Virus record (IMG/VR): IMGVR_UViG_3300049617_000267
Coordinates: 1 to 58,864 of that record
DNA length: 58,864 nt
Reading direction: 5' to 3' (one strand)
Origin: a virus
Shown here in pieces: positions 4,023-55,669 of this stretch. A model generated the notes under the pieces. It ran no database searches, was not told where the DNA came from, and was given only the letters and a program-made list of their open reading frames with translations. The position numbers and the translations under genes are program-made. Numbering within the stretch: position 1 is the first letter of the stretch; the number at the start of each line of letters is the position of its first letter.

Positions 4023-4303
4023 CGGCCCTCTCCGACGCCCCCAGCCGAGAGGCGACGATGCGCCACGTCGTCCGTTTCGCGCGTCACGTCGGCGCGCAGC
4101 CGCTGCGGATGCTGGTGGCGCTGGCGGCCGAGGACGCTGCCCGGGGCTGCTTGGCCGTCGCTCGCGCCAACCCCTCGCGCGCGCCGATCCTGGACATCCG
4201 CGCCCGCGAGCTCTGGCGCCTGGCCGGCGAGCTGCGTGCTGGAATTACGTCGCTTCCGTCGTCGCCATCACCACCGAAAGGAGCCGAAAATGCCCCGGTA
4301 TGA
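4019..4303 (+). CDS. Small hypothetical helical protein (94 aa)
   Basis: ATG 4019 overlaps the previous stop. The protein is an Ala/Arg-rich helical chain (TMRHVVRFARHVGAQPLRML, then ELWRLAGELRAGITSL). The last 14 codons overlap the ribosome binding site and start of the 4290 gene, so the extreme C-terminus may be incidental. No domain recognised. Confidence 0.45.
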   Translation: MTALSDAPSREATMRHVVRFARHVGAQPLRMLVALAAEDAARGCLAVARANPSRAPILDIRARELWRLAGELRAGITSLPSSPSPPKGAENAPV

Positions 4304-4679
4304 CGTTCTGGTTTGCTACCCGGTTTGGGCCTCGCGCATCACCGAGATCGAGGCGCCGGACCCCGCGCGCGCGGCCGAGTGGGCGATGGATGAAGCTTCC
4401 GTCGCCCGAGACTGGAAGACCGGCGAGGCCGGCGAGAGCCACGTCGAATCGATCTGGACCGTCGATGCCGCCGGCGATCCCGACAAGGCATGTCCGATTC
4501 CTCCCTGTTTCCGGGATACCATGGAAGGGGATTTGGCGGATTCGCTGCGCTTCGTGGTCTCGGCGCTGGAAGCAATTAATCCGTCGCTCGAAGCCGTCAA
4601 AGCCGGACGGGCCGCGCTCGCCGACTACAGCGCCCGGATGCGGCGCGAGCCCGTCATCACCCCAGGAGGAAGGCCATGA
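4290..4679 (+). CDS. Hypothetical protein (129 aa)
   Basis: ATG 4290 is chosen because AAAGGAG lies 7 bases upstream, itself preceded by the ATCACCACCG leader seen before other starts. The N-terminus (MPRYDVLVCYPVWASRITEI) resembles small phage proteins with a ferredoxin-like beta-alpha fold. It continues as an acidic domain ending in a helix (LEAVKAGRAALADYSARM). Function unknown. Confidence 0.6.
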   Translation: MPRYDVLVCYPVWASRITEIEAPDPARAAEWAMDEASVARDWKTGEAGESHVESIWTVDAAGDPDKACPIPPCFRDTMEGDLADSLRFVVSALEAINPSLEAVKAGRAALADYSARMRREPVITPGGRP

Positions 4680-4924
4680 TGCGCCGCGCCCGAGATCTCC
4701 AATCGACCGACTCACTTCTGCAGATGGCGCGAATTCCGTCGGAGCGCGGGCATATGGCTGTGCTATGCCAGGGCAGCTTGTTCGCGGTGGCGTGCAACAT
4801 CACCGGCCGTTGGGTTGTCATGCGCGGATCGACCAGGCTGGCGACCGGCGTGCTGGCGGAGGCGCAAAGCGCCTTTCGTGTCGCGGCCGAGCATGTCCGT
4901 CGCTTCGCTCAGCACAAGCCATGA
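4676..4924 (+). CDS. Small hypothetical protein (82 aa)
   Basis: The ATG at 4676 follows an AGGAGG site (4667-4673 region) and overlaps the previous stop; a second ATG lies one codon later. The peptide is beta-rich (MAVLCQGSLFAVACNITGRW) and ends in a helix. Its stop overlaps the ATG of the HTH gene at 4921. Not recognised. Confidence 0.5.
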   Translation: MMRRARDLQSTDSLLQMARIPSERGHMAVLCQGSLFAVACNITGRWVVMRGSTRLATGVLAEAQSAFRVAAEHVRRFAQHKP

Positions 4925-5238
4925 CCGGGCTGGAATTCGCCGAAGCCCTGGAGAAGCTGGGATGGAGCCGCGAGGAAGCGGCGCGCCGGTTCGGTTTCGA
5001 CCGTCGGCAGATCACGCGCTTCATCCGGGAAGGTGCGTCGATTCCTCGTGCCGTGTCGGATTGGCTGGAAGCAGCGGCCGGCTGGATTGGCCGGAACCCG
5101 CCGCCGAAGGGGCGAGGGCTTCCGCCTTACCCCAGCGGACACCTTGGGGTGTCGCGTTCCCAAACCTGGGATACGCGACTCGGCAATGTCCCAGGCAGTA
5201 AGGCTTCCCCTGTATCGCGGGTTCGCCGCAAAATTTGA
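4921..5238 (+). CDS. Helix-turn-helix protein (105 aa, core about 50 aa)
   Basis: Starts at ATG 4921 overlapping the previous stop. Residues 5-50 form an HTH of phage-regulator type: EALEKLGWSREEAARRFGFD, turn, RRQITRFIREG, IPRAVSDWLEAA. The C-terminal half (PPPKGRGLPPYPSG onward) lies opposite the 3' end of the minus-strand gcrA-like gene for 218 bp and is low in complexity. The true functional product may be mainly the HTH core. It could regulate the adjacent control region. Confidence 0.55.
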   Translation: MTGLEFAEALEKLGWSREEAARRFGFDRRQITRFIREGASIPRAVSDWLEAAAGWIGRNPPPKGRGLPPYPSGHLGVSRSQTWDTRLGNVPGSKASPVSRVRRKI

Positions 5239-5662
5239 GAGTCCCGGCGCGCGCGTCGCCGAGCGGCCAGTTGCACTCTCCCCGCATCACGTGGGGCTTC
5301 GTTGAGAGACGCACCGCGGGGGCGATCTCTTTTTCAGGTTCCGGCGCGAGGGCCGCGGGGGCCGGCGAAGGGGTGGGCGCTGCCCGGGCGGTTTCCACCT
5401 GCGTCGTGAGCGGTGGCAAAGTGTGGTCCGACGGCTTGATCCTTTTCGGCGTGGGCGGCTTCCGCTGCCGCCCTTCGACGCGCTTGATCGGGCTGGCCCT
5501 GCCCGGAAGGTTGAGGCGATGCGCCTTGCTCACCACCGAGTTCTTGGAGATCCCCATGCGGCGCCCGATCTCGGCCGTCGAATAGCCCTCGGCCCAGAAT
5601 CCCTCCAGTCGAAGGATGGAGGCCCTGTCCCAAGAGAAGTATTCTTCGGGGCGCACGCTCAC
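5021..5662 (-). CDS. gcrA-like: GcrA-family cell cycle regulator homologue (213 aa)
   Basis: The N-terminal 50 residues form an HTH (LEGFWAEGYSTAEIGRRMGI, SKNSVVSKAHRLNLPGR) of the type used by GcrA. After a Pro-rich linker comes CNWPLGDARAGTLKFCG, then GKPYCLGHCRVAYPR, the Cys/His-containing C-terminal GcrA signature. In Caulobacter GcrA binds sigma-70 holoenzyme and activates promoters carrying methylated GANTC. A phage copy could redirect host transcription. The last 45 residues beyond the family core overlap the opposite-strand HTH gene. Its start overlaps the stop of the 5659 gene (ATGA), so the two are co-transcribed. Confidence 0.8.
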   Translation of the reverse strand: MSVRPEEYFSWDRASILRLEGFWAEGYSTAEIGRRMGISKNSVVSKAHRLNLPGRASPIKRVEGRQRKPPTPKRIKPSDHTLPPLTTQVETARAAPTPSPAPAALAPEPEKEIAPAVRLSTKPHVMRGECNWPLGDARAGTLKFCGEPAIQGKPYCLGHCRVAYPRFGNATPQGVRWGKAEALAPSAAGSGQSSRPLLPANPTRHEESTHLPG

Positions 5663-6360
5663 CCCAAGAACGGCTGGCGCGGCGTCGCGCTCGCGGCCGG
5701 CACTGGCGGTGGCGCCGCCTTGATGGCGGCCTGGATATTAACCGTCACCTCATCGACGAGATCGAGCATCTCGGCAACAGCCGCCAGCGCGTCTTGCGGC
5801 GCGCCCTCGGGCACGTCCATGTAAACCGCCGCGAGCGCCGCAGCGGTGCGCTGCCGAAACGCCCTGATCGCCGACCGTTCCTTTTGCACAGCGGTCGGCG
5901 CGAATTCCGTCGGGAGGGGAACGGAGGCGACCATTGCGGCAACCGTGGCCAGGTAGTGTTCCTGCGCCGGGGTCAACGAGACGTCCCCGCGCATCAGCTT
6001 CGTGAGTTCGAGCTGGGTCATGCCGAGGCGCATGCCGATCGTCGGCCAAGACCACCCGACGAGCTCCTTGTTCACGCGCAGCGGCGTGGCGTCGGGCGTG
6101 AGGTCCACATCGTCCACCGGGTCGCCGTCTGAATCGCCGGCCGCGGCCGGGTCTTCGGAGGTGATGCCCATTTCTTTCTCCCTTTTTTCAATCACGCGCA
6201 CGATACGCCGAACGAAACTGAGCCGCGGATCACGCCTGCCCTTGGACCACTGCCAGAACCAATCGGTCGAAAGGCCGGCGTCCCGACACGCCTGCGAGAC
6301 TGAGAGTCCGCAGATGGCCATCCTCTCGCGCAACAGGTCCGGGTCGGGCATCTCCGCCAT
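5659..6360 (-). CDS. Repressor-like protein with two HTH-type regions (233 aa)
   Basis: Residues 8-60 read as an XRE-like HTH (RMAICGLSVSQACRDAGLST, then WKG-type turn in QWSKGRRDPRLSF). A second HTH-like stretch is at about 100-150 (WSWPTIGMRLGMTQLELTKL, MRGDVSLTPAQEHYL). It is the first gene leftward from the 6392-6417 palindrome and is cotranscribed with the gcrA-like gene. This is the classic placement for an autoregulated phage control protein. No peptidase (LexA/CI) domain is visible. Confidence 0.6.
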   Translation of the reverse strand: MAEMPDPDLLRERMAICGLSVSQACRDAGLSTDWFWQWSKGRRDPRLSFVRRIVRVIEKREKEMGITSEDPAAAGDSDGDPVDDVDLTPDATPLRVNKELVGWSWPTIGMRLGMTQLELTKLMRGDVSLTPAQEHYLATVAAMVASVPLPTEFAPTAVQKERSAIRAFRQRTAAALAAVYMDVPEGAPQDALAAVAEMLDLVDEVTVNIQAAIKAAPPPVPAASATPRQPFLG

Positions 6361-6391: not shown

Positions 6392-6417
6392 GGTCAACCG
6401 TCATTTGACGGTTGACC
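6392..6417. promoter_or_regulatory. Perfect palindromic operator in the divergent promoter region
   Basis: GGTCAACCGTCA at 6392-6403, TT, then the exact reverse complement TGACGGTTGACC at 6406-6417: 12-bp arms without a mismatch. It lies between the minus-strand HTH/gcrA-like pair and the plus-strand recombination operon. Each arm contains TTGAC, so it could cover the -35 elements in both directions. Leftward, TTGACC is followed 18 bases on by TAGCGT. A dimeric repressor, probably the 5659-6360 product, is the likely ligand. Confidence 0.7.
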
Positions 6418-44238: not shown

Positions 44239-44574
44239 ATGACGGTGACGGAACACCCCCTGATTCAGACCGTGGCTAAGGGGGGCGGCCTGACGCTCAC
44301 CGACATAGCAGTCCTGTTGCTTTCCGATAAGCGCCGGGTGCCCGCGGAACAGCGCCAGCTCGCCGAGATCGCCGAGACGCTGGCCGTGTTCCGGTCCATG
44401 GTCACTCGGGTCGCCGAGCGCCTGGAGCGCCACGGCTACGCCGAGCGGGTGCGCCATCCCGACGACCGGCGCCGCTTCATCATGTGCGCCACGATCATCG
44501 GCGAGGAATTCATCGACGGAATGGAGGGGACGCGGCACGCTCCCCAGCAAACCCGCCTGCCCAAAGCCGCATAA
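44239..44574 (+). CDS. MarR-like winged-helix regulator (111 aa)
   Basis: ATG 44239 has GGAGG 6 bases upstream; the ATG at 44227 lies within the promoter and would be nearly leaderless. LTLTDIAVLLLSDKRRVPAE, LAVFRSMVTRVAERLERHGY and AERVRHPDDRRRFIMCATII are the recognition helix and wing of MarR-type regulators. It is divergent from the head operon and may control the switch between them. No effector-binding features could be judged. Confidence 0.65.
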   Translation: MTVTEHPLIQTVAKGGGLTLTDIAVLLLSDKRRVPAEQRQLAEIAETLAVFRSMVTRVAERLERHGYAERVRHPDDRRRFIMCATIIGEEFIDGMEGTRHAPQQTRLPKAA

Positions 44575-46658: not shown

Positions 46659-46786
46659 GCGCGCCCTTCCTCATCAACGCGCCGGCGGTCATCAGTGTGT
46701 CCGGCGGTCGCACGAGTGCTTATGTGCTTTGGCGAATCCTGCAAGCGGATGGCGGCGAGCTTCGCGATGGAAGGGATGGGACGTGA
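46655..46786 (+). pseudogene. N-terminal stub of a PAPS-reductase-like (PP-loop) gene (43 aa)
   Basis: GTG 46655 overlaps the previous TGA. The peptide INAPAVISVSGGRTSAYVLW then RILQADGGELRD is the start of phage phosphoadenosine-phosphosulfate-reductase-type proteins, including the SGGRTSA PP-loop. Homologues run to over 200 residues; here the frame ends at TGA 46784-46786 at the start of the helicase gene. The gene body appears deleted, leaving a coupled leader ORF that may still help translate the helicase. Confidence 0.6.
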
Positions 46787-47898
46787 GCGTTCCTTTCCGC
46801 AGCGCGGACCCGTTCCAGTTCCCTGGGAAGAACCAGAGGGAGCCATTCGAGCTCCTTCACTTCGACGCGATCACGCCGCGCCTCGACGCCCACGACTTCG
46901 TCCAGGGGTTGCTTGTCGACCGGAGCGCCGTGGTCATCTACGGGGCGTCGGGCTCCGGCAAGACCTTCTTCACCACGGATTTATGCCTGCACATCGCCGC
47001 CGGCATGACCTGGCAGGGCAGGCGGGTGGAGCAGCGCGGGGTCATCTATTGCGTTCTCGAGGGCACGGTGGGGTTCGCCAACCGTGTCGCGGCGTGGCGC
47101 GAGCGGTATGCCCCGAGCGGCAGCGTCAACTTCGCCGCCATCGAATCGCCGATCAACATGCTCGACGCCGAGGCCGACGTGGAGGCCCTCTGCAACTCGC
47201 TCGACGACGCGAAGCAGCTCTTCGGCATGCCGGTCGGCCTCGTGGTGCTCGACACGCTCTCACGCGCCATGGCGGGGGGCGATGAGAACAATCCAGAGGC
47301 GATGGGGACGCTGGTGCGAAACATCGACTACCTGCGCGACCGGACGGGCGCCGCGGTCGCCAGCGTGCACCATACCGGCAAGGACGCCAGCCGCGGCGCG
47401 CGCGGGCACAGCCTACTCCGCGCGGCGATCGACACCGAGATCGAGGTGGCTTTCGACGAAGACATGAACGTCCGCACGGCGACCGTGGTGAAGCAGCGGG
47501 AAATGTCGAAGAGCGCGGCGATCACCTTCGGGCTGGAGGTCATCGAGCTCGGAGAAAACCGGCATGGCGAGGTGGTGACCACGTGCATCGTGACGGACGG
47601 GGCATCGACGCCGGCGCCGCGCCGGAAGGCGAAGCCGGTTCGCAATCCGGCGGCCGCCAGGGCTTACGAGATCCTCGAGGAGCTGGTGCGCGACAAGGGC
47701 GAACGCGGCGTCGCCGACATCACCACCGCCGTCGCCACCGTGCCGATGGCGGCATGGTTCAAGGCGTACAGCGCCAATCCGCTGCCGGGCTCAAACCCCA
47801 AGACGATGGGGACGTCGTTCAAGCGGTCGATGGAAATTCTGCTTCAGTCCAAGCACGTCGCCATGGTCGGCGACCGCGTGTGGCCGGTCAGTCAATAG
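46783..47898 (+). CDS. RepA-like replicative helicase / AAA ATPase (371 aa)
   Basis: GTG 46783 overlaps the preceding stop, with AAGGGA upstream. VVIYGASGSGKTFFTTDLCL carries Walker A near residue 55. IAAGMTWQGRRVEQRGVIYC and VLEGTVGFANRVAAWRERYA follow, and Walker B LVVLDTLSRAMAGGDEN lies near 152. VASVHHTGKDASRGARGHSL is the sensor-type motif of the hexameric RepA/RSF1010-type family. The C-terminal 90 residues are a separate helical domain. It is the only replication motor seen here. Confidence 0.8.
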   Translation: MSVPFRSADPFQFPGKNQREPFELLHFDAITPRLDAHDFVQGLLVDRSAVVIYGASGSGKTFFTTDLCLHIAAGMTWQGRRVEQRGVIYCVLEGTVGFANRVAAWRERYAPSGSVNFAAIESPINMLDAEADVEALCNSLDDAKQLFGMPVGLVVLDTLSRAMAGGDENNPEAMGTLVRNIDYLRDRTGAAVASVHHTGKDASRGARGHSLLRAAIDTEIEVAFDEDMNVRTATVVKQREMSKSAAITFGLEVIELGENRHGEVVTTCIVTDGASTPAPRRKAKPVRNPAAARAYEILEELVRDKGERGVADITTAVATVPMAAWFKAYSANPLPGSNPKTMGTSFKRSMEILLQSKHVAMVGDRVWPVSQ

Positions 47899-48065: not shown

Positions 48066-49274
48066 TTAATCCGCCCTCCGGATGCTTCCTGCGTCGTCGG
48101 GCCGCTGGTTGCGGTGCCCCTCAACAGGCTTCAAGGACTTATCCAGCCCCCGTTGTAGAATGACGATCGCCGCGTTTGTGTCGGCATTGGCTTCGTGGTT
48201 GCAGCCCGTGCAGACGAACCGCGCCTGATCTTGTCGGCTTCGCGCATCCACCACGCCGCATTCGGCGCATGTCTGGCTGGTGTATGCGGCTGGCACTTCG
48301 ATCAGCCTGCCCCCCCGATCCGCCAGCTTGTAGCCGAGCATGATCCGGAACGCGCCCCATCCCTGATCCAGAATGGCCCGGTTCAGCCCCGCCTTTTGCC
48401 GGACCATTTTGCCCGGTTCGGAGGCGGTGCCCTTCGCGGATGCGGACATATTCCGCACCTTCAGCGCCTCCAAAACGACCGTGCCGTGGTTATTGGCGAT
48501 GGCCGTAGTCTGCTCATGGAGGAAGTTCTTGCGGGCATTGGCGACCCGCATATGCATCTTAGCCACGCGGCGGATAGCCTTGCGGCGGTTGGACGAACCG
48601 CGCTTCTTGCGGCTCAGGCTGCGTTGCGCCTTCCGCAGCGCCCGCATCGCCTTCTTACCGTGGTTGACAGGGGCGATGTTGGTGCCGTTGGACAGCGCGG
48701 CGAACACCGCAACGCCCCGGTCGATACCCACCGCCGGCAGGATGGATGGCCTCGGCTCGACTACCTCTCGCTGCCACTGGACGGCGACATGCCATTGCCC
48801 AGCGCGACGTGAGACGGTCGCGTTGCAGATGGTGCCGGGGATGGCATACCAGCCACGAAGCCGCACCCATCCAACCTTCGGAAGCTTGATCCGTCCTGAC
48901 GAATTGCCCGTACGTTCAACCTTGATCGAAACCGGATCGGGAAAGCGGAAACTATCGCGCAGTCCCTTCTTGCGCGGCGTCGGGTAGTGTGCGCGAGCTG
49001 CCCACCAGTTCTGATATGCGCGGTCGAGGTCTTTCAATGCCTGTTGCAGCGTGTGAACAGGGGCTGCTTTCAGCCAATCCACTTCGGCCCGAAGCATGGT
49101 GATTTCGCGGCATTGGCTGGCGAAGCTGAACTTCCGCCCAGGCCGATACCAGTCGCGCCGTTGCTCCAACGCCAGATTGAACACATACCGGCACGCCCCC
49201 GCGATCTGCGCCATTTGCTGCGCTTGCTCTGGCGTCGGGTAGAGCCGGTATTTGTTGGCCTTGCGGAGAAGCAT
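48066..49274 (-). CDS. tnpB: TnpB, IS605-type RNA-guided nuclease (402 aa)
   Basis: ATG 49274 (MLLRKANKYRLYPTPEQAQQ) is the usual TnpB start; the longer upstream frame overlaps tnpA. The RuvC acids are visible: D185 in GIDRGVAVF, E269 in VVLEALKVRNM, D365 in ANADTNAAI. The zinc finger is C336-x2-C339 and C355-x2-C358. Full length and apparently active. TnpB cuts DNA next to the target-adjacent motif under omega RNA guidance and favours IS retention. Confidence 0.9.
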   Translation of the reverse strand: MLLRKANKYRLYPTPEQAQQMAQIAGACRYVFNLALEQRRDWYRPGRKFSFASQCREITMLRAEVDWLKAAPVHTLQQALKDLDRAYQNWWAARAHYPTPRKKGLRDSFRFPDPVSIKVERTGNSSGRIKLPKVGWVRLRGWYAIPGTICNATVSRRAGQWHVAVQWQREVVEPRPSILPAVGIDRGVAVFAALSNGTNIAPVNHGKKAMRALRKAQRSLSRKKRGSSNRRKAIRRVAKMHMRVANARKNFLHEQTTAIANNHGTVVLEALKVRNMSASAKGTASEPGKMVRQKAGLNRAILDQGWGAFRIMLGYKLADRGGRLIEVPAAYTSQTCAECGVVDARSRQDQARFVCTGCNHEANADTNAAIVILQRGLDKSLKPVEGHRNQRPDDAGSIRRAD

Positions 49275-49295
49275 GACCCTTGATACACTTGGTCT

Positions 49296-49709
49296 ATGGA
49301 TGATGCAAGCGATTATAGGCGCGGAAGATCTGTAGTTTATGCCCTTCACGTCCATTTGGTCTTTGTGACAAAATATCGACGAAGGGTTTTGGACGAAGCC
49401 GCTACCGCTACGCTCCGAACTATCTTCGCGCGGGTCTGCGAAGATTTCGGATCGGAACTGAGGGCGTGCGACGGTGAGGATGACCATGTCCACCTGTTGG
49501 TGGAATACCCACCCACGGTGCGGCTTCCGACGCTAGTGAACAGCCTCAAAGGCGTGTCCTCCCGGCTGCTTCGCCAACAGCGGCCAGACATCGTGCGACG
49601 CTATTGGAAGGACGTGCTGTGGTCGCCTTCGTATTTCGCGGCATCTTGTGGCGGCGCCCCTCTGGATATCATCCGGCGCTACGTGGAGCAGCAAAGGAAG
49701 ACGGGCTAA
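49296..49709 (+). CDS. tnpA: TnpA, IS200-type Y1 HUH transposase (137 aa)
   Basis: VVYALHVHLVFVTKYRRRVL opens the fold. The HUH metal site is HVHLL in GEDDHVHLLVEYPP. LKGVSSRLLRQQ and the catalytic Tyr in PLDIIRRYVEQQRKTG complete the family motifs. Length is typical and no frameshift is visible, so the element may still be mobile. It is divergent from tnpB. Confidence 0.9.
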   Translation: MDDASDYRRGRSVVYALHVHLVFVTKYRRRVLDEAATATLRTIFARVCEDFGSELRACDGEDDHVHLLVEYPPTVRLPTLVNSLKGVSSRLLRQQRPDIVRRYWKDVLWSPSYFAASCGGAPLDIIRRYVEQQRKTG

Positions 49710-52380: not shown

Positions 52381-52816
52381 TGGCACCCGACGACTGCATC
52401 CCCTCCCATTGCACCTTCGCGGTTTCCGGGTCTGGGAACCGATTGGTCTGCGCGTGGCACTCTTCGCAGCGCACGAAGAAGTCCATGGGTGTGGCTGTCC
52501 CCCAGAGCAGGGTTGAATGGCGGCTGCCGCAGCGGCAGGGGTGGAGATGCTGGCCCGCGGCGTGGGCCCCCCGCTGCGCGTCGGTACGCACTTCGATCCC
52601 TTCCGATCGCGCCAGCAGCCGGTCGCCTTCGTCCTCGTGCAAGCGGGCGTAGGCCCGGCGCTTCGCGATCTCGCTGAACCGGCGGCCCGCGTAGAGGGCT
52701 TCGAGCTCGCGGTAGATCAGGGCGGCCTTGGCGAGATGGTACGCTGCCTGTTCGGCGTTCTGGGCCCGCTCGGCCGCATCATCGGCACTTCCGATGCTCG
52801 AGCGCTCGCCGGTCAC
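52370..52816 (-). CDS. Lar-like zinc-ribbon protein (148 aa), GTG start
   Basis: GTG 52816 overlaps the upstream TGA. The N-terminal helical half (ERAQNAEQAAYHLAKAALIY, ELEALYAGRRFSEIAKRRAY) precedes a zinc ribbon: HPCRCGSRHSTLL, then VRCEECHAQTNRFPDPETAK and VQWEGM, the layout of Lar-type restriction alleviation domains. Lar of Rac modulates a type I system; whether this protein does is unknown. Confidence 0.55.
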   Translation of the reverse strand: MTGERSSIGSADDAAERAQNAEQAAYHLAKAALIYRELEALYAGRRFSEIAKRRAYARLHEDEGDRLLARSEGIEVRTDAQRGAHAAGQHLHPCRCGSRHSTLLWGTATPMDFFVRCEECHAQTNRFPDPETAKVQWEGMQSSGANAI

Positions 52817-53076
52817 TTCACCCGCCAGATCGTCACGATCCGTTCGCCCATCGGCCCGATCCGCCTCGTCGTGAACTCCGGCACCACACCCTCCCCGTTT
52901 TTCGCCGCAAACCGCTTCACCCGGATCATCTCGGTCTCGATCTTTCGATCGAGTGACGCCGGGTAGCTCTTGCACTCCCCGACCTCGAGATCGTCCAGCA
53001 CCACTTCTCGCACCGCCCGGCCCCCGAGCCGCCGCGGCGGGATCGGCACGCCGGCCTGTTTTACCCCAAACTGCAT
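52813..53076 (-). CDS. Small phage protein, first gene of the leftward operon (87 aa)
   Basis: ATG 53076 with GAAAGG 5-6 bases upstream. VVLDDLEVGECKSYPASLDR, FAAKNGEGVVPEFTTRRIGP and MGERIVTIWRVK resemble small DUF7303-like phage proteins (LEVGES ... RxWRV). The operon promoter lies just upstream at 53114-53142. Confidence 0.55.
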   Translation of the reverse strand: MQFGVKQAGVPIPPRRLGGRAVREVVLDDLEVGECKSYPASLDRKIETEMIRVKRFAAKNGEGVVPEFTTRRIGPMGERIVTIWRVK

Positions 53077-53113
53077 CAGCCTTTCCCCACGTCGTACTGG
53101 ACCATTTCCGAAG

Positions 53114-53142
53114 ATTTATCGACAATTAAAGCCCACAGTCAA
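53114..53142 (-). promoter_or_regulatory. Leftward sigma-70-type promoter
   Basis: On the minus strand: TTGACT (53142-53137), 17-base spacer, ATAAAT (53119-53114); GATAAA with a 16-base spacer is an equivalent reading. It is placed 40 bases upstream of the first gene of the leftward operon and next to the inverted-repeat cluster, which starts at 53158. Confidence 0.6.
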
Positions 53143-53157
53143 GCCACCCTATCCACG

Positions 53158-53363
53158 TTTCGATCCATGGCTGGATCCAGCAGACGCCACTTTTCACATT
53201 TTGGATCCAGAACCCTACAAATCCAATCCATGGCTGGATCCAGAAAATTCAACCATCACAATCATTCCACAGGCGAAAATGGATACAGCCATGGACTATA
53301 ATTGTGAACTTCTGGATCGAAACCTACGAAAATGCACTTTCTGGATCCAGCCATGGATCGAAA
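53158..53363. repeat. Cluster of 18-23 bp repeats in both orientations, origin or control candidate
   Basis: Copy A is 53158-53180 (TTTCGATCCATGGCTGGATC plus CAG). Copy B, direct, is 53226-53243 (18 bp exact). An imperfect inverted copy is at 53279-53296. Copy D, the exact 23-bp reverse complement of A, is at 53341-53363. Partial TTGGATCCAG and TCTGGATCGAAA pieces lie at 53201 and 53311. Each unit joins CCATGG and GGATCC palindromes. The stretch is AT-rich compared with the genome and lies between divergent operons. Confidence 0.75.
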
Positions 53364-53975
53364 ATGAAAATGCATGGTCTCAAACGTTTTCAACAGTCTC
53401 TCCCTCTGTCTCCCCCCCCCTTTAGGGCCCCCTCTTAAGGGGGGCCCAAGGGGGGACTCTGGGGGGACTACTCCAAAAAAATTCAGGATGTCATAGAAAA
53501 CGGGACGGGGCCCCCAAAAACACCCAACAGCCAGAAAGCGGGGGGACCCATGCGCTGGAGCCGAGCCCGCGGCCTTGGGGGTCCGGGGGGGGGCTCGGGG
53601 CGCGCCGGCAGCCAGGAACCGGCCGGCCGGCGACTGGACTGGACGCCTAGGCCGCACACCCCCGCCAGACGCGCCAGGTTGCGCCAGGAGGCGCCCCCGC
53701 GGGAAGGGGCGCTGGGTCAGCCCGTGACTCCTCCCTCCCGGCCTCCAGGCCCCGAAAAACGGGGTTGCCGGGCATGCTCGCGGTTTTCCGCCGCTTCCGG
53801 AGCGAGCGCTGGGCTGCCAGGGATTAGGACTGGAATCAGCGTTTGCGGACCTAATCCGTTGATAAGTCTATAGTTTCACAATCTCAGAAGTCTCATTATG
53901 TAAAGTCGCGGGGGGGGAGACAGAATCCCACCCCATGGGGCGCTAGCTGGTGGACTTCCAGCGCGCAGAATACGC
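53364..53975. other. Long gene-free region with G/C tracts and an inverted repeat
   Basis: No credible gene. 53400-53480 carries runs of C and G (CCCCCCCCC, GGGGGG repeated, GGGGGGACT twice). 53540-53760 is very GC-rich. At 53821-53828 and 53850-53857 GGATTAGG and CCTAATCC form 8-bp inverted arms, followed by an AT-rich stretch (53857-53905). Together with the repeats at 53158 this could hold the origin or a packaging site; the small terminase gene lies 1 kb to the right. Confidence 0.5.
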
Positions 53976-54003
53976 TAGACACCATACACGAGGCGTGTAT
54001 ACT
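53976..54003 (+). promoter_or_regulatory. Rightward promoter with embedded palindromic operator
   Basis: TAGACA (53976-53981), 16-base spacer, TATACT (53998-54003). Inside it, ATACACG-AGG-CGTGTAT (53984-54000) is a perfect 7-bp inverted repeat overlapping the -10 box, so a bound dimer would block the promoter. It serves the operon that starts with the 54176 gene. Confidence 0.6.
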
Positions 54004-54175
54004 GCCGCTCATACCCGGTGGGATTGGCCCGCTGGACAGAGGAGTGCCTCAGATGGAAGACCAGATCACACAGAAGTCAGTCGCTCGCATCCTGGACCGG
54101 GCCGCCGAGCATCCCGCGTCCTCGAAGCAGGTTGGGTGCGGGGGGCGCCTCGGGCGTCAGGGGCAGGAGAAGACG

Positions 54176-54541
54176 ATGACGACCTACACGGTTTTCGATG
54201 CCAACGACTCCAGCAGAATTTATGGCCGCAGCCTGACCGCTTTTGAGGCGATGAGTAAAATACTGACCTATGACGGATATCGTTACGAAATTAGGAAGTC
54301 TGACTTCCAGGGGTCGGTGTGCTGGGACTTATATCACAGCGATGGGTCGGTCTATTCCACGCGCGGCGCGGATCACATGGTCAAAACGGTGATCTTCTCT
54401 TTGATCGGTGATGAAGCCCACGCTGAGCAAGAAATCGCGGAGCACGTTATTGCAGCTGGCTGGGATGGCCTGCCGGAGGTGATGACGGATGAAGATTTTG
54501 ACGCCATGCTCGCGGAAATCGCAGCAGATGAGGCGGAGTGA
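54176..54541 (+). CDS. Hypothetical early protein (121 aa)
   Basis: ATG 54176 has AGGAGA 5-6 bases upstream. TTYTVFDANDSSRIYGRSLT, DLYHSDGSVYSTRGADHMVK and EVMTDEDFDAMLAEIAADEA give an alpha/beta acidic protein. In the same frame 44 further codons are open back to 54044 but lack a comparable ribosome site. First gene after the operator-containing promoter; function unknown. Confidence 0.55.
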   Translation: MTTYTVFDANDSSRIYGRSLTAFEAMSKILTYDGYRYEIRKSDFQGSVCWDLYHSDGSVYSTRGADHMVKTVIFSLIGDEAHAEQEIAEHVIAAGWDGLPEVMTDEDFDAMLAEIAADEAE

Positions 54542-54614: not shown

Positions 54615-55007
54615 GTGACCACTCTCGCCGCCCTGCTGATCGCGCGCTGCGGTCTCTCGCAACGGGAGGCCGCAGACGTGCTCGGCGTCCGCATCGACAC
54701 CGTAAAATCGTGGTGTGTCGGCCGGAACCGGACGCCGCCCGGCGTCATCGAGGAGCTGCGCGCGCTCTACCGCCGTATCGAGGTCGCCGCCGACGAGGCG
54801 CTTGGTGTCTTCGCACGCGAGGGCGGCGGCGTCGATGTCATTGAGATCGGTGTCGCCGCCACCGACGCCGAGGCCCAGGCGCTCGGCTGCCCGTGTGTCG
54901 GCGCGCACGAGGCGCTAATTGGCCTGATCGCCGCCCGGGCTCGCGTGCCGGTGCGGGTGGTGCCGCGCGGCTCCACCCCAGCGACAGCCGCCGCGACAAT
55001 CGTTTAG
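54615..55007 (+). CDS. Helix-turn-helix protein (130 aa), GTG start
   Basis: GTG 54615. ALLIARCGLSQREAADVLGV then RIDTVKSWCVGRNRTPPGVI is a clear HTH of XRE/regulator type at residues 5-45. The C-terminal part (GVDVIEIGVAATDAEAQALG, CPCVGAHEALIGLIAARARV) is an alpha/beta region. It is a candidate ligand for the palindrome at 53984. The GCCCGGGCTCGCGTG string near its end recurs at 56560. Confidence 0.6.
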   Translation: MTTLAALLIARCGLSQREAADVLGVRIDTVKSWCVGRNRTPPGVIEELRALYRRIEVAADEALGVFAREGGGVDVIEIGVAATDAEAQALGCPCVGAHEALIGLIAARARVPVRVVPRGSTPATAAATIV

Positions 55008-55042: not shown

Positions 55043-55669
55043 TCAGCAGCTGCCGCTGCCACTGTCGCGCCCGCCGCCTCCGGACCGGATCACCTGGAAC
55101 GCCACGGCAGGGAGCTCCGCCGCCTCAGTCGACCGCACGTAGCCGCGTAGCCGCGCAATCGACATCAAAGCGGCGATCTTGTCGTGCAGCTCCACCGACA
55201 CGGCCCCATCCTTCGAGACCCGCAACTTCGAGATCGCTGCGTGCCGGTCGTGCTCGATCTCATGGGGATCTCGGACGCGAACATACCCGACACGCTCGAA
55301 AGACTCCGCGCCTTCGGCATCGACGTGGCGCCGGACATCATGACCCCATTCCGCGATATCGACCATAGACGTGAAGCCGATCCGCGCCAGCTCCCGCACG
55401 ATGCGGTCAGCATCCACGCCGAGGCGCTGGAAGAAGTCAGCGGCGGAAACGTTTGCCGCTTCGCGAGCCTTCGCCAGGGCTTCCCTGATGACCTTCCGTT
55501 GGACGTAGCCGGCTTTCACTCGGTCGCACTGTTTCGGATCTGGGAAATCATGAGCGAAAACAGCGCGGAAGGAGGCGGCGATATCGAAACCGGAGCGCAT
55601 GCACTCCCGGATGAACTCTCGATCTTTTGCGGTTATTTCAGAGGGTTGCACGCGTTTTTTGTTTGCCAT
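55043..55669 (-). CDS. terS: Probable terminase small subunit (208 aa)
   Basis: ITAKDREFIRECMRSGFDIA is the DNA-binding HTH; KAGYVQRKVIREALAKAREA continues it. Residues 85-110 (ADRIVRELARIGFTSMVDIA) and 145-175 (KLRVSKDGAVSVELHDKIAA) are Terminase_2-type signature segments. The last 40 residues end in a Gly/Ser tail. The small subunit recognises the packaging site, often near its own gene. It stands alone on the minus strand 12 kb from terL and faces the early plus-strand genes. Confidence 0.75.
   Translation of the reverse strand: MANKKRVQPSEITAKDREFIRECMRSGFDIAASFRAVFAHDFPDPKQCDRVKAGYVQRKVIREALAKAREAANVSAADFFQRLGVDADRIVRELARIGFTSMVDIAEWGHDVRRHVDAEGAESFERVGYVRVRDPHEIEHDRHAAISKLRVSKDGAVSVELHDKIAALMSIARLRGYVRSTEAAELPAVAFQVIRSGGGGRDSGSGSC

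Follow-up and report, generated by a model that had tools for sequence, protein, structure and literature searches.

A candidate packaging site and a symmetric, phage-specific repeat array in the longest gene-free stretch of an uncultivated phage genome

Introduction

Each lambda operator consists of three 17-bp sites, and the herpes simplex origin oriL is a symmetric viral origin to which the array described here can be likened, with its symmetric boxes in AT-rich DNA. For DNA packaging, terminase-binding arrays of the lambda cosB type provide the comparison system (PMC4856287). In many pac phages, the small terminase (TerS) binds DNA weakly and without sequence preference (PMC9611059).

Here, we analyzed the full 58,864 bases of an uncultivated virus record (the window), in which the gene-free stretch 53077–54052 is most likely a compound region of two neighbouring cis signals: a candidate packaging site and a phage-specific repeat array. 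A preliminary description had treated this gap as one thing and missed a conserved terminase-linked element in its other half.

The phage and its longest gene-free stretch

The minus-strand genes of the window encode portal, large terminase, major head and GroES-like proteins, and its early genes include a RecE-type exonuclease and a RepA-family helicase. Structural-gene homologues occur in Acetobacteraceae prophages (e.g. Gluconacetobacter diazotrophicus) at identities from ∼50% (portal) to 76% (major head protein), from which we infer that the host is probably an alphaproteobacterium of that kind. Other uncultivated phages have major head proteins with up to 84% identity to that of the window. 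An IS200/IS605-type insertion occupies 48066–49709 (Y1 transposase 49296–49709, plus strand; TnpB 48066–49493, minus strand), and a tRNA was the single class found in an RNA family search.

At 976 bp, the gap is the longest gene-free stretch in our gene set. It had been presented as the only one above 300 bases, but several others of 300–480 bp exist, their count depending on gene calls. The gap and its surroundings, apart from the array and the conserved element listed further below, contain the following features:

52813–53076, minus strand: first gene of the leftward operon, 87 aa, with GGGGAAAGG before its ATG; no family matches
53115–53142, minus strand: candidate leftward promoter TTGACT-16-GATAAA, read from the sequence; weak match (9/12)
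53405–53419, no strand: left arm of an exact 15-bp inverted repeat, TCTGTCTCCCCCCCC, from the repeat search
53425–53447, no strand: near-palindrome GGGCCCCCTCTTAAGGGGGGCCC within a longer C/G-tract hairpin
53821–53857, no strand: short inverted repeat GGATTAGG...CCTAATCC (arms 53821–53828 and 53850–53857)
53910–53924, no strand: right arm of the 15-bp inverted repeat TCTGTCTCCCCCCCC, from the repeat search
53976–54003, plus strand: rightward promoter TAGACA-16-TATACT
53984–54000, no strand: palindrome ATACACGAGGCGTGTAT, which overlaps the rightward promoter and may be a simple operator distinct from the array
54053–54541, plus strand: first rightward gene (gene call), 162 aa, with AGAGGAG before its ATG
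55043–55669, minus strand: small terminase subunit gene, terS (Terminase_2, weak match), on the same strand as the conserved element

Both promoters had been proposed before. The rightward one was picked up by a promoter scan, whereas the leftward pair of boxes is present in the sequence but weaker, and the scan did not list it. The −35 box of this leftward candidate is 16 bp from the end of the array, and a ribosome-binding site and ATG come next. Single-sequence structure prediction of the 87-aa protein was uninformative (pLDDT 50).

The G/C tracts and the short inverted repeat at 53821–53857, both already pointed out in the preliminary description, are present, and one pair of tracts forms the exact 15-bp inverted repeat. 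Its arms enclose the G/C-rich part that holds the conserved element, and no target duplication was seen. A DNA hairpin in the G/C tracts was rejected as a notable feature (fold z = −0.8).

Anatomy of the repeat array

The array forms a single imperfect dyad and is more ordered than previously described:

53158–53363, no strand: whole array, a 206-bp imperfect dyad centred at ∼53261
53158–53180, no strand: outer left unit TTTCGATCCATGGCTGGATCCAG, exact inverted copy of 53341–53363
53200–53211, no strand: lone palindromic site TTTGGATCCAGA, flanked by the left outer and inner composite units
53226–53243, no strand: inner left unit ATCCATGGCTGGATCCAG, an 18-mer direct copy
53279–53296, no strand: inner right unit TGGATACAGCCATGGA with flanks, three mismatches to the inverted 18-mer
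53311–53322, no strand: lone site TCTGGATCGAAA, mirror partner of 53200–53211
53341–53363, no strand: outer right unit CTGGATCCAGCCATGGATCGAAA, exact inverted copy of 53158–53180

The exact 23-bp inverted pair, the direct 18-mer and the imperfect inverted copy of the preliminary description are thus all in place, and its two partial units correspond to the lone sites at 53200 and 53311. Its claim of AT-richness also held, as the AT-richest 200 bp of the genome fall inside the array (40.5% GC at 53191).

Four CCATGG units (53165, 53228, 53289, and 53351) are spaced by 63, 61, and 62 bp. Eight TGGATCCA-type half-palindromes, centred at 53163.5, 53175.5, 53205.5, 53238.5, 53283.5, 53316.5, 53345.5, and 53357.5, follow the mirror spacing 12-30-33-45-33-29-12, and all four exact copies of TGGATCCA in the 58.9-kb genome lie within the array. 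The array contains 8-bp perfect palindromes, a form suited to reading by dimers, and its units are mainly mirror-arranged; head-to-tail repeats at regular spacing were not found in the array. Spacings of ∼62 and 30–33 bp correspond to roughly six and three helical turns, so the sites would lie on the same face of the helix.

The repeats are far beyond chance. The best 250-bp segment contains 95 repeated 8-mer pairs, compared with ∼2 after dinucleotide shuffling (none of 1000 shuffles reached 95); this is by far the highest repeat density in the genome, with no other region of the 58,864-base record coming near. The array has a gapped dyad score of 29, whereas 2000 shuffles averaged −16.5 and peaked at 3.5, and its self-fold has z = −10.6.

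A conserved element linked to the small-terminase gene

The other half of the gap contains two features with counterparts in related phages:

53535–53590, minus strand: conserved terS-linked element (model match), core CCCCCAAGG-N23-GGGTCCCCCC, a candidate cos or pac
53473–53484, minus strand: A7/T7 tract box GAATTTTTTTGG; similar GAATTTT boxes occur ∼90–110 bp past the core in several relatives

In six related uncultivated phages, the small-terminase gene has this C-box element immediately downstream. In G399, G403, G406, L220, and L241, a Terminase_2 gene is followed ∼120–310 bp on by the same-strand C-box pair, and the pair by AT-rich DNA with GAATTTT-type boxes. G404 carries an out-of-sample copy, found 175 bp past terS by a model built without G404. 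Another model, based on the six relatives with the window left out, matched the window at a single place (threshold E 10), namely 53535–53590 on the minus strand (E = 3.6e-5; E-values of such short element models are rough). The element is low in complexity, with C-tracts; beyond sequence score, the case for it is built on its recurrence next to terS and on the out-of-sample matches. In the window, it lies on the strand of terS, with two rightward genes in between. It was found neither in the Acetobacteraceae prophages searched nor in more distant named phages.

Two further sequences, L242 and L243, matched the C-box pattern but were not found by a model built without both, and are not counted as carriers; the match in L242 lies just before a terL-linked gene. 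In G406, a serine recombinase gene (L191:7024–7704) directly follows the terS-linked element.

Conservation of this non-coding element beside terS in the same orientation, seen in six relatives and recovered by the window-free model, indicates that 53535–53590 most likely serves as the packaging start, a cos or a pac. Judging from that conservation, the element and the A-tract at 53473–53484 would together act as a terminase-linked packaging start, probably inherited with the capsid module. If so, a group of uncultivated phages that is related to acetic acid bacterial prophages gains a candidate packaging start; none of the related records that could be read carries a packaging site annotation.

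Searches for the array in other genomes

Relatives share structural genes with the window, not the genes around the array, which have no relative in the fetched prophages and phages, with the sole exception of terS. A search for relatives through early genes (DUF932, RepA helicase, TerS, and the 87-aa gene) found none.

The array is not shared with the element-carrying relatives, and across 39 related viral records TGGATCCA occurs as scattered single copies and nothing more. Downstream of the element, eight other sequences showed no significant repeats, and the best dyad fold in relatives at that place reached z = −3.5, compared with −6.8 for the window in the same scan. No copies were found in known phages, plasmids gave short matches of E 0.3 at best, and 397 Acetobacteraceae genomes gave no convincing match. 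Four matches to the array's 16-mer core in viral_contigs, not clustered and one of them inside an FtsK-like gene, were dismissed as chance, as was a 31-bp match inside a gene of one Acetobacteraceae genome.

The next gene in G399, G403, and G406 has its start or end ∼140–230 bp past the element, short of the distance at which the array ends in the window. Because of this, the array looks like extra DNA on the leftward-gene side, belonging to the leftward genes rather than to the packaging site.

Possible functions of the array

Since the array is phage-specific, occupies the place where relatives have their next gene and ends 16 bp from the candidate leftward promoter, we favour its reading as a multi-site operator for the leftward operon over an origin or a terminase-binding array, tentatively and at somewhat below even chances. 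The array would then be a phage-specific symmetric set of dimer-type protein sites: several dimers of a phage DNA-binding protein may bind the TGGATCSA palindromes on similar helix faces (spacings of 30–33 and ∼62 bp), associate across the dyad cooperatively or through looping, and thereby switch the nearby promoter. Several near-identical, dimer-type palindromes with helical spacing do stand beside a candidate promoter, itself a weak match, and exact and imperfect repeat copies are confined to the array. A PWM scan of the window found no convincing site outside the array and no second set at another promoter; not every operator need have such a set. Most phage operators are shorter than this 206-bp array.

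Candidate DNA-binding proteins encoded in the window are:

4300–5238: HTH-type protein gene
5021–5662: GcrA cell-cycle regulator homologue (Pfam E = 5.5e-24); several relatives have related sequences
5659–6360, minus strand: HTH repressor-like gene, divergent to the RecE-type gene
44239–44574: HTH-type protein gene
54615–55007: HTH-type protein gene

A perfect 26-bp palindrome, GGTCAACCGTCATTTGACGGTTGACC, lies at 6392–6417 between the HTH repressor-like gene and the RecE-type gene and is an operator candidate in its own right. Both it and the palindrome at 53984–54000 differ in sequence from the array.

The preliminary description had offered an origin, a partition site or an operator, of which the operator fits best. 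A replication origin is less likely: an initiator would bind the repeats on either side of the centre, open the DNA and load the RepA-family helicase (46729–47898), whose gene lies 5.3 kb from the array. The AT-richest place in the genome, a dyad of repeated boxes between diverging genes, the helicase itself and the lack of another clear initiator-origin pair all agree with this, as does the raw cumulative GC-skew minimum at 53434. Cumulative skew had been named beforehand as a check, however, and once the mean skew is removed the minimum, now start-independent, moves to 34253 and the site is not singled out. The array centre (53246–53278, 39% GC) has no strong unwinding element, the repeats are mainly inverted rather than head-to-tail iterons, and no Rep or O-type initiator was recognised. 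The relative G406 instead has direct repeats, GGGTGCCAACTGGTCCATTTA, inside a replisome-organiser-like gene (L190:15421–15500), a possible in-gene origin of that phage. A partition site (parS) is unlikely because no partition genes were found: ParA and ParB had no match among the proteins scanned, some small ORFs lying outside that set.

Slightly less likely than an origin is that the array is the small-terminase binding part of a lambda cosB-like packaging site, in which the C-box element would be cut and the A-tract would form a bend between the two. The shared intergenic region argues for it, as does the AT-rich DNA with GAATTTT boxes that comes after the element in relatives. Those relatives, however, show neither significant repeats nor a comparable dyad fold downstream of the same element; ∼170 bp separate the array from the element, a much greater distance than that between cosN and cosB in lambda, and the array lies beyond the start of the next gene in relatives; and in many pac phages TerS binding is weak and shows no sequence preference (PMC9611059). 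A variant in which array and element form one packaging centre, with the small-terminase ring wrapping round a symmetric, helix-phased TerS array specific to this phage's terminase, seems improbable; if true, it would offer a natural system for testing sequence-specific DNA wrapping by TerS. Least probable of the four main readings is a mobile or structural remnant, such as a miniature inverted-repeat element, a recombination site or a hairpin acting as a single strand. Exact 23-bp terminal inverted repeats, AT-rich gene-free DNA, the strong self-fold and spacers that partly mirror one another (19/37) would suit it. Yet miniature elements are recognised by multiple copies with target-site duplications, and here the window has a single copy, with no target duplication seen at its ends, and the collections searched gave none beyond short plasmid matches; no integrase was seen among the proteins scanned, and the regular 62-bp spacing would be unexpected.

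The array is an unusually clean symmetric region of the protein-binding type. Because every exact copy of TGGATCCA in the genome, four in all, lies within it, it should be easy to footprint and to distinguish as a switch, an origin or a terminase site.

Comparison with known systems

With iteron origins, the array shares repeated initiator-type boxes set symmetrically in AT-rich DNA, but it differs from these and from oriL-type origins in having no very AT-rich centre. A likeness to SPP1-type pac lies in a terminase site outside a simple short word and in AT-rich bent DNA (PMC4856287); SPP1 pac flanks its cut on both sides, whereas the repeats in the window are on one side of the element alone.

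The region resembles lambda cos (cosN-I2-cosB) in its conserved element beside a small-terminase gene, with an A/T tract downstream and repeated sites further on. The order of terS and element in the relatives differs from that of lambda, the window has two genes between them, and its array is ∼170 bp away and not conserved. Like lambda OL and OR, the array places several dimer-type palindromic sites, spaced by whole helical turns, by an early promoter between diverging units, but it does so on a larger scale, with about eight to twelve half-sites in one dyad of 206 bp.
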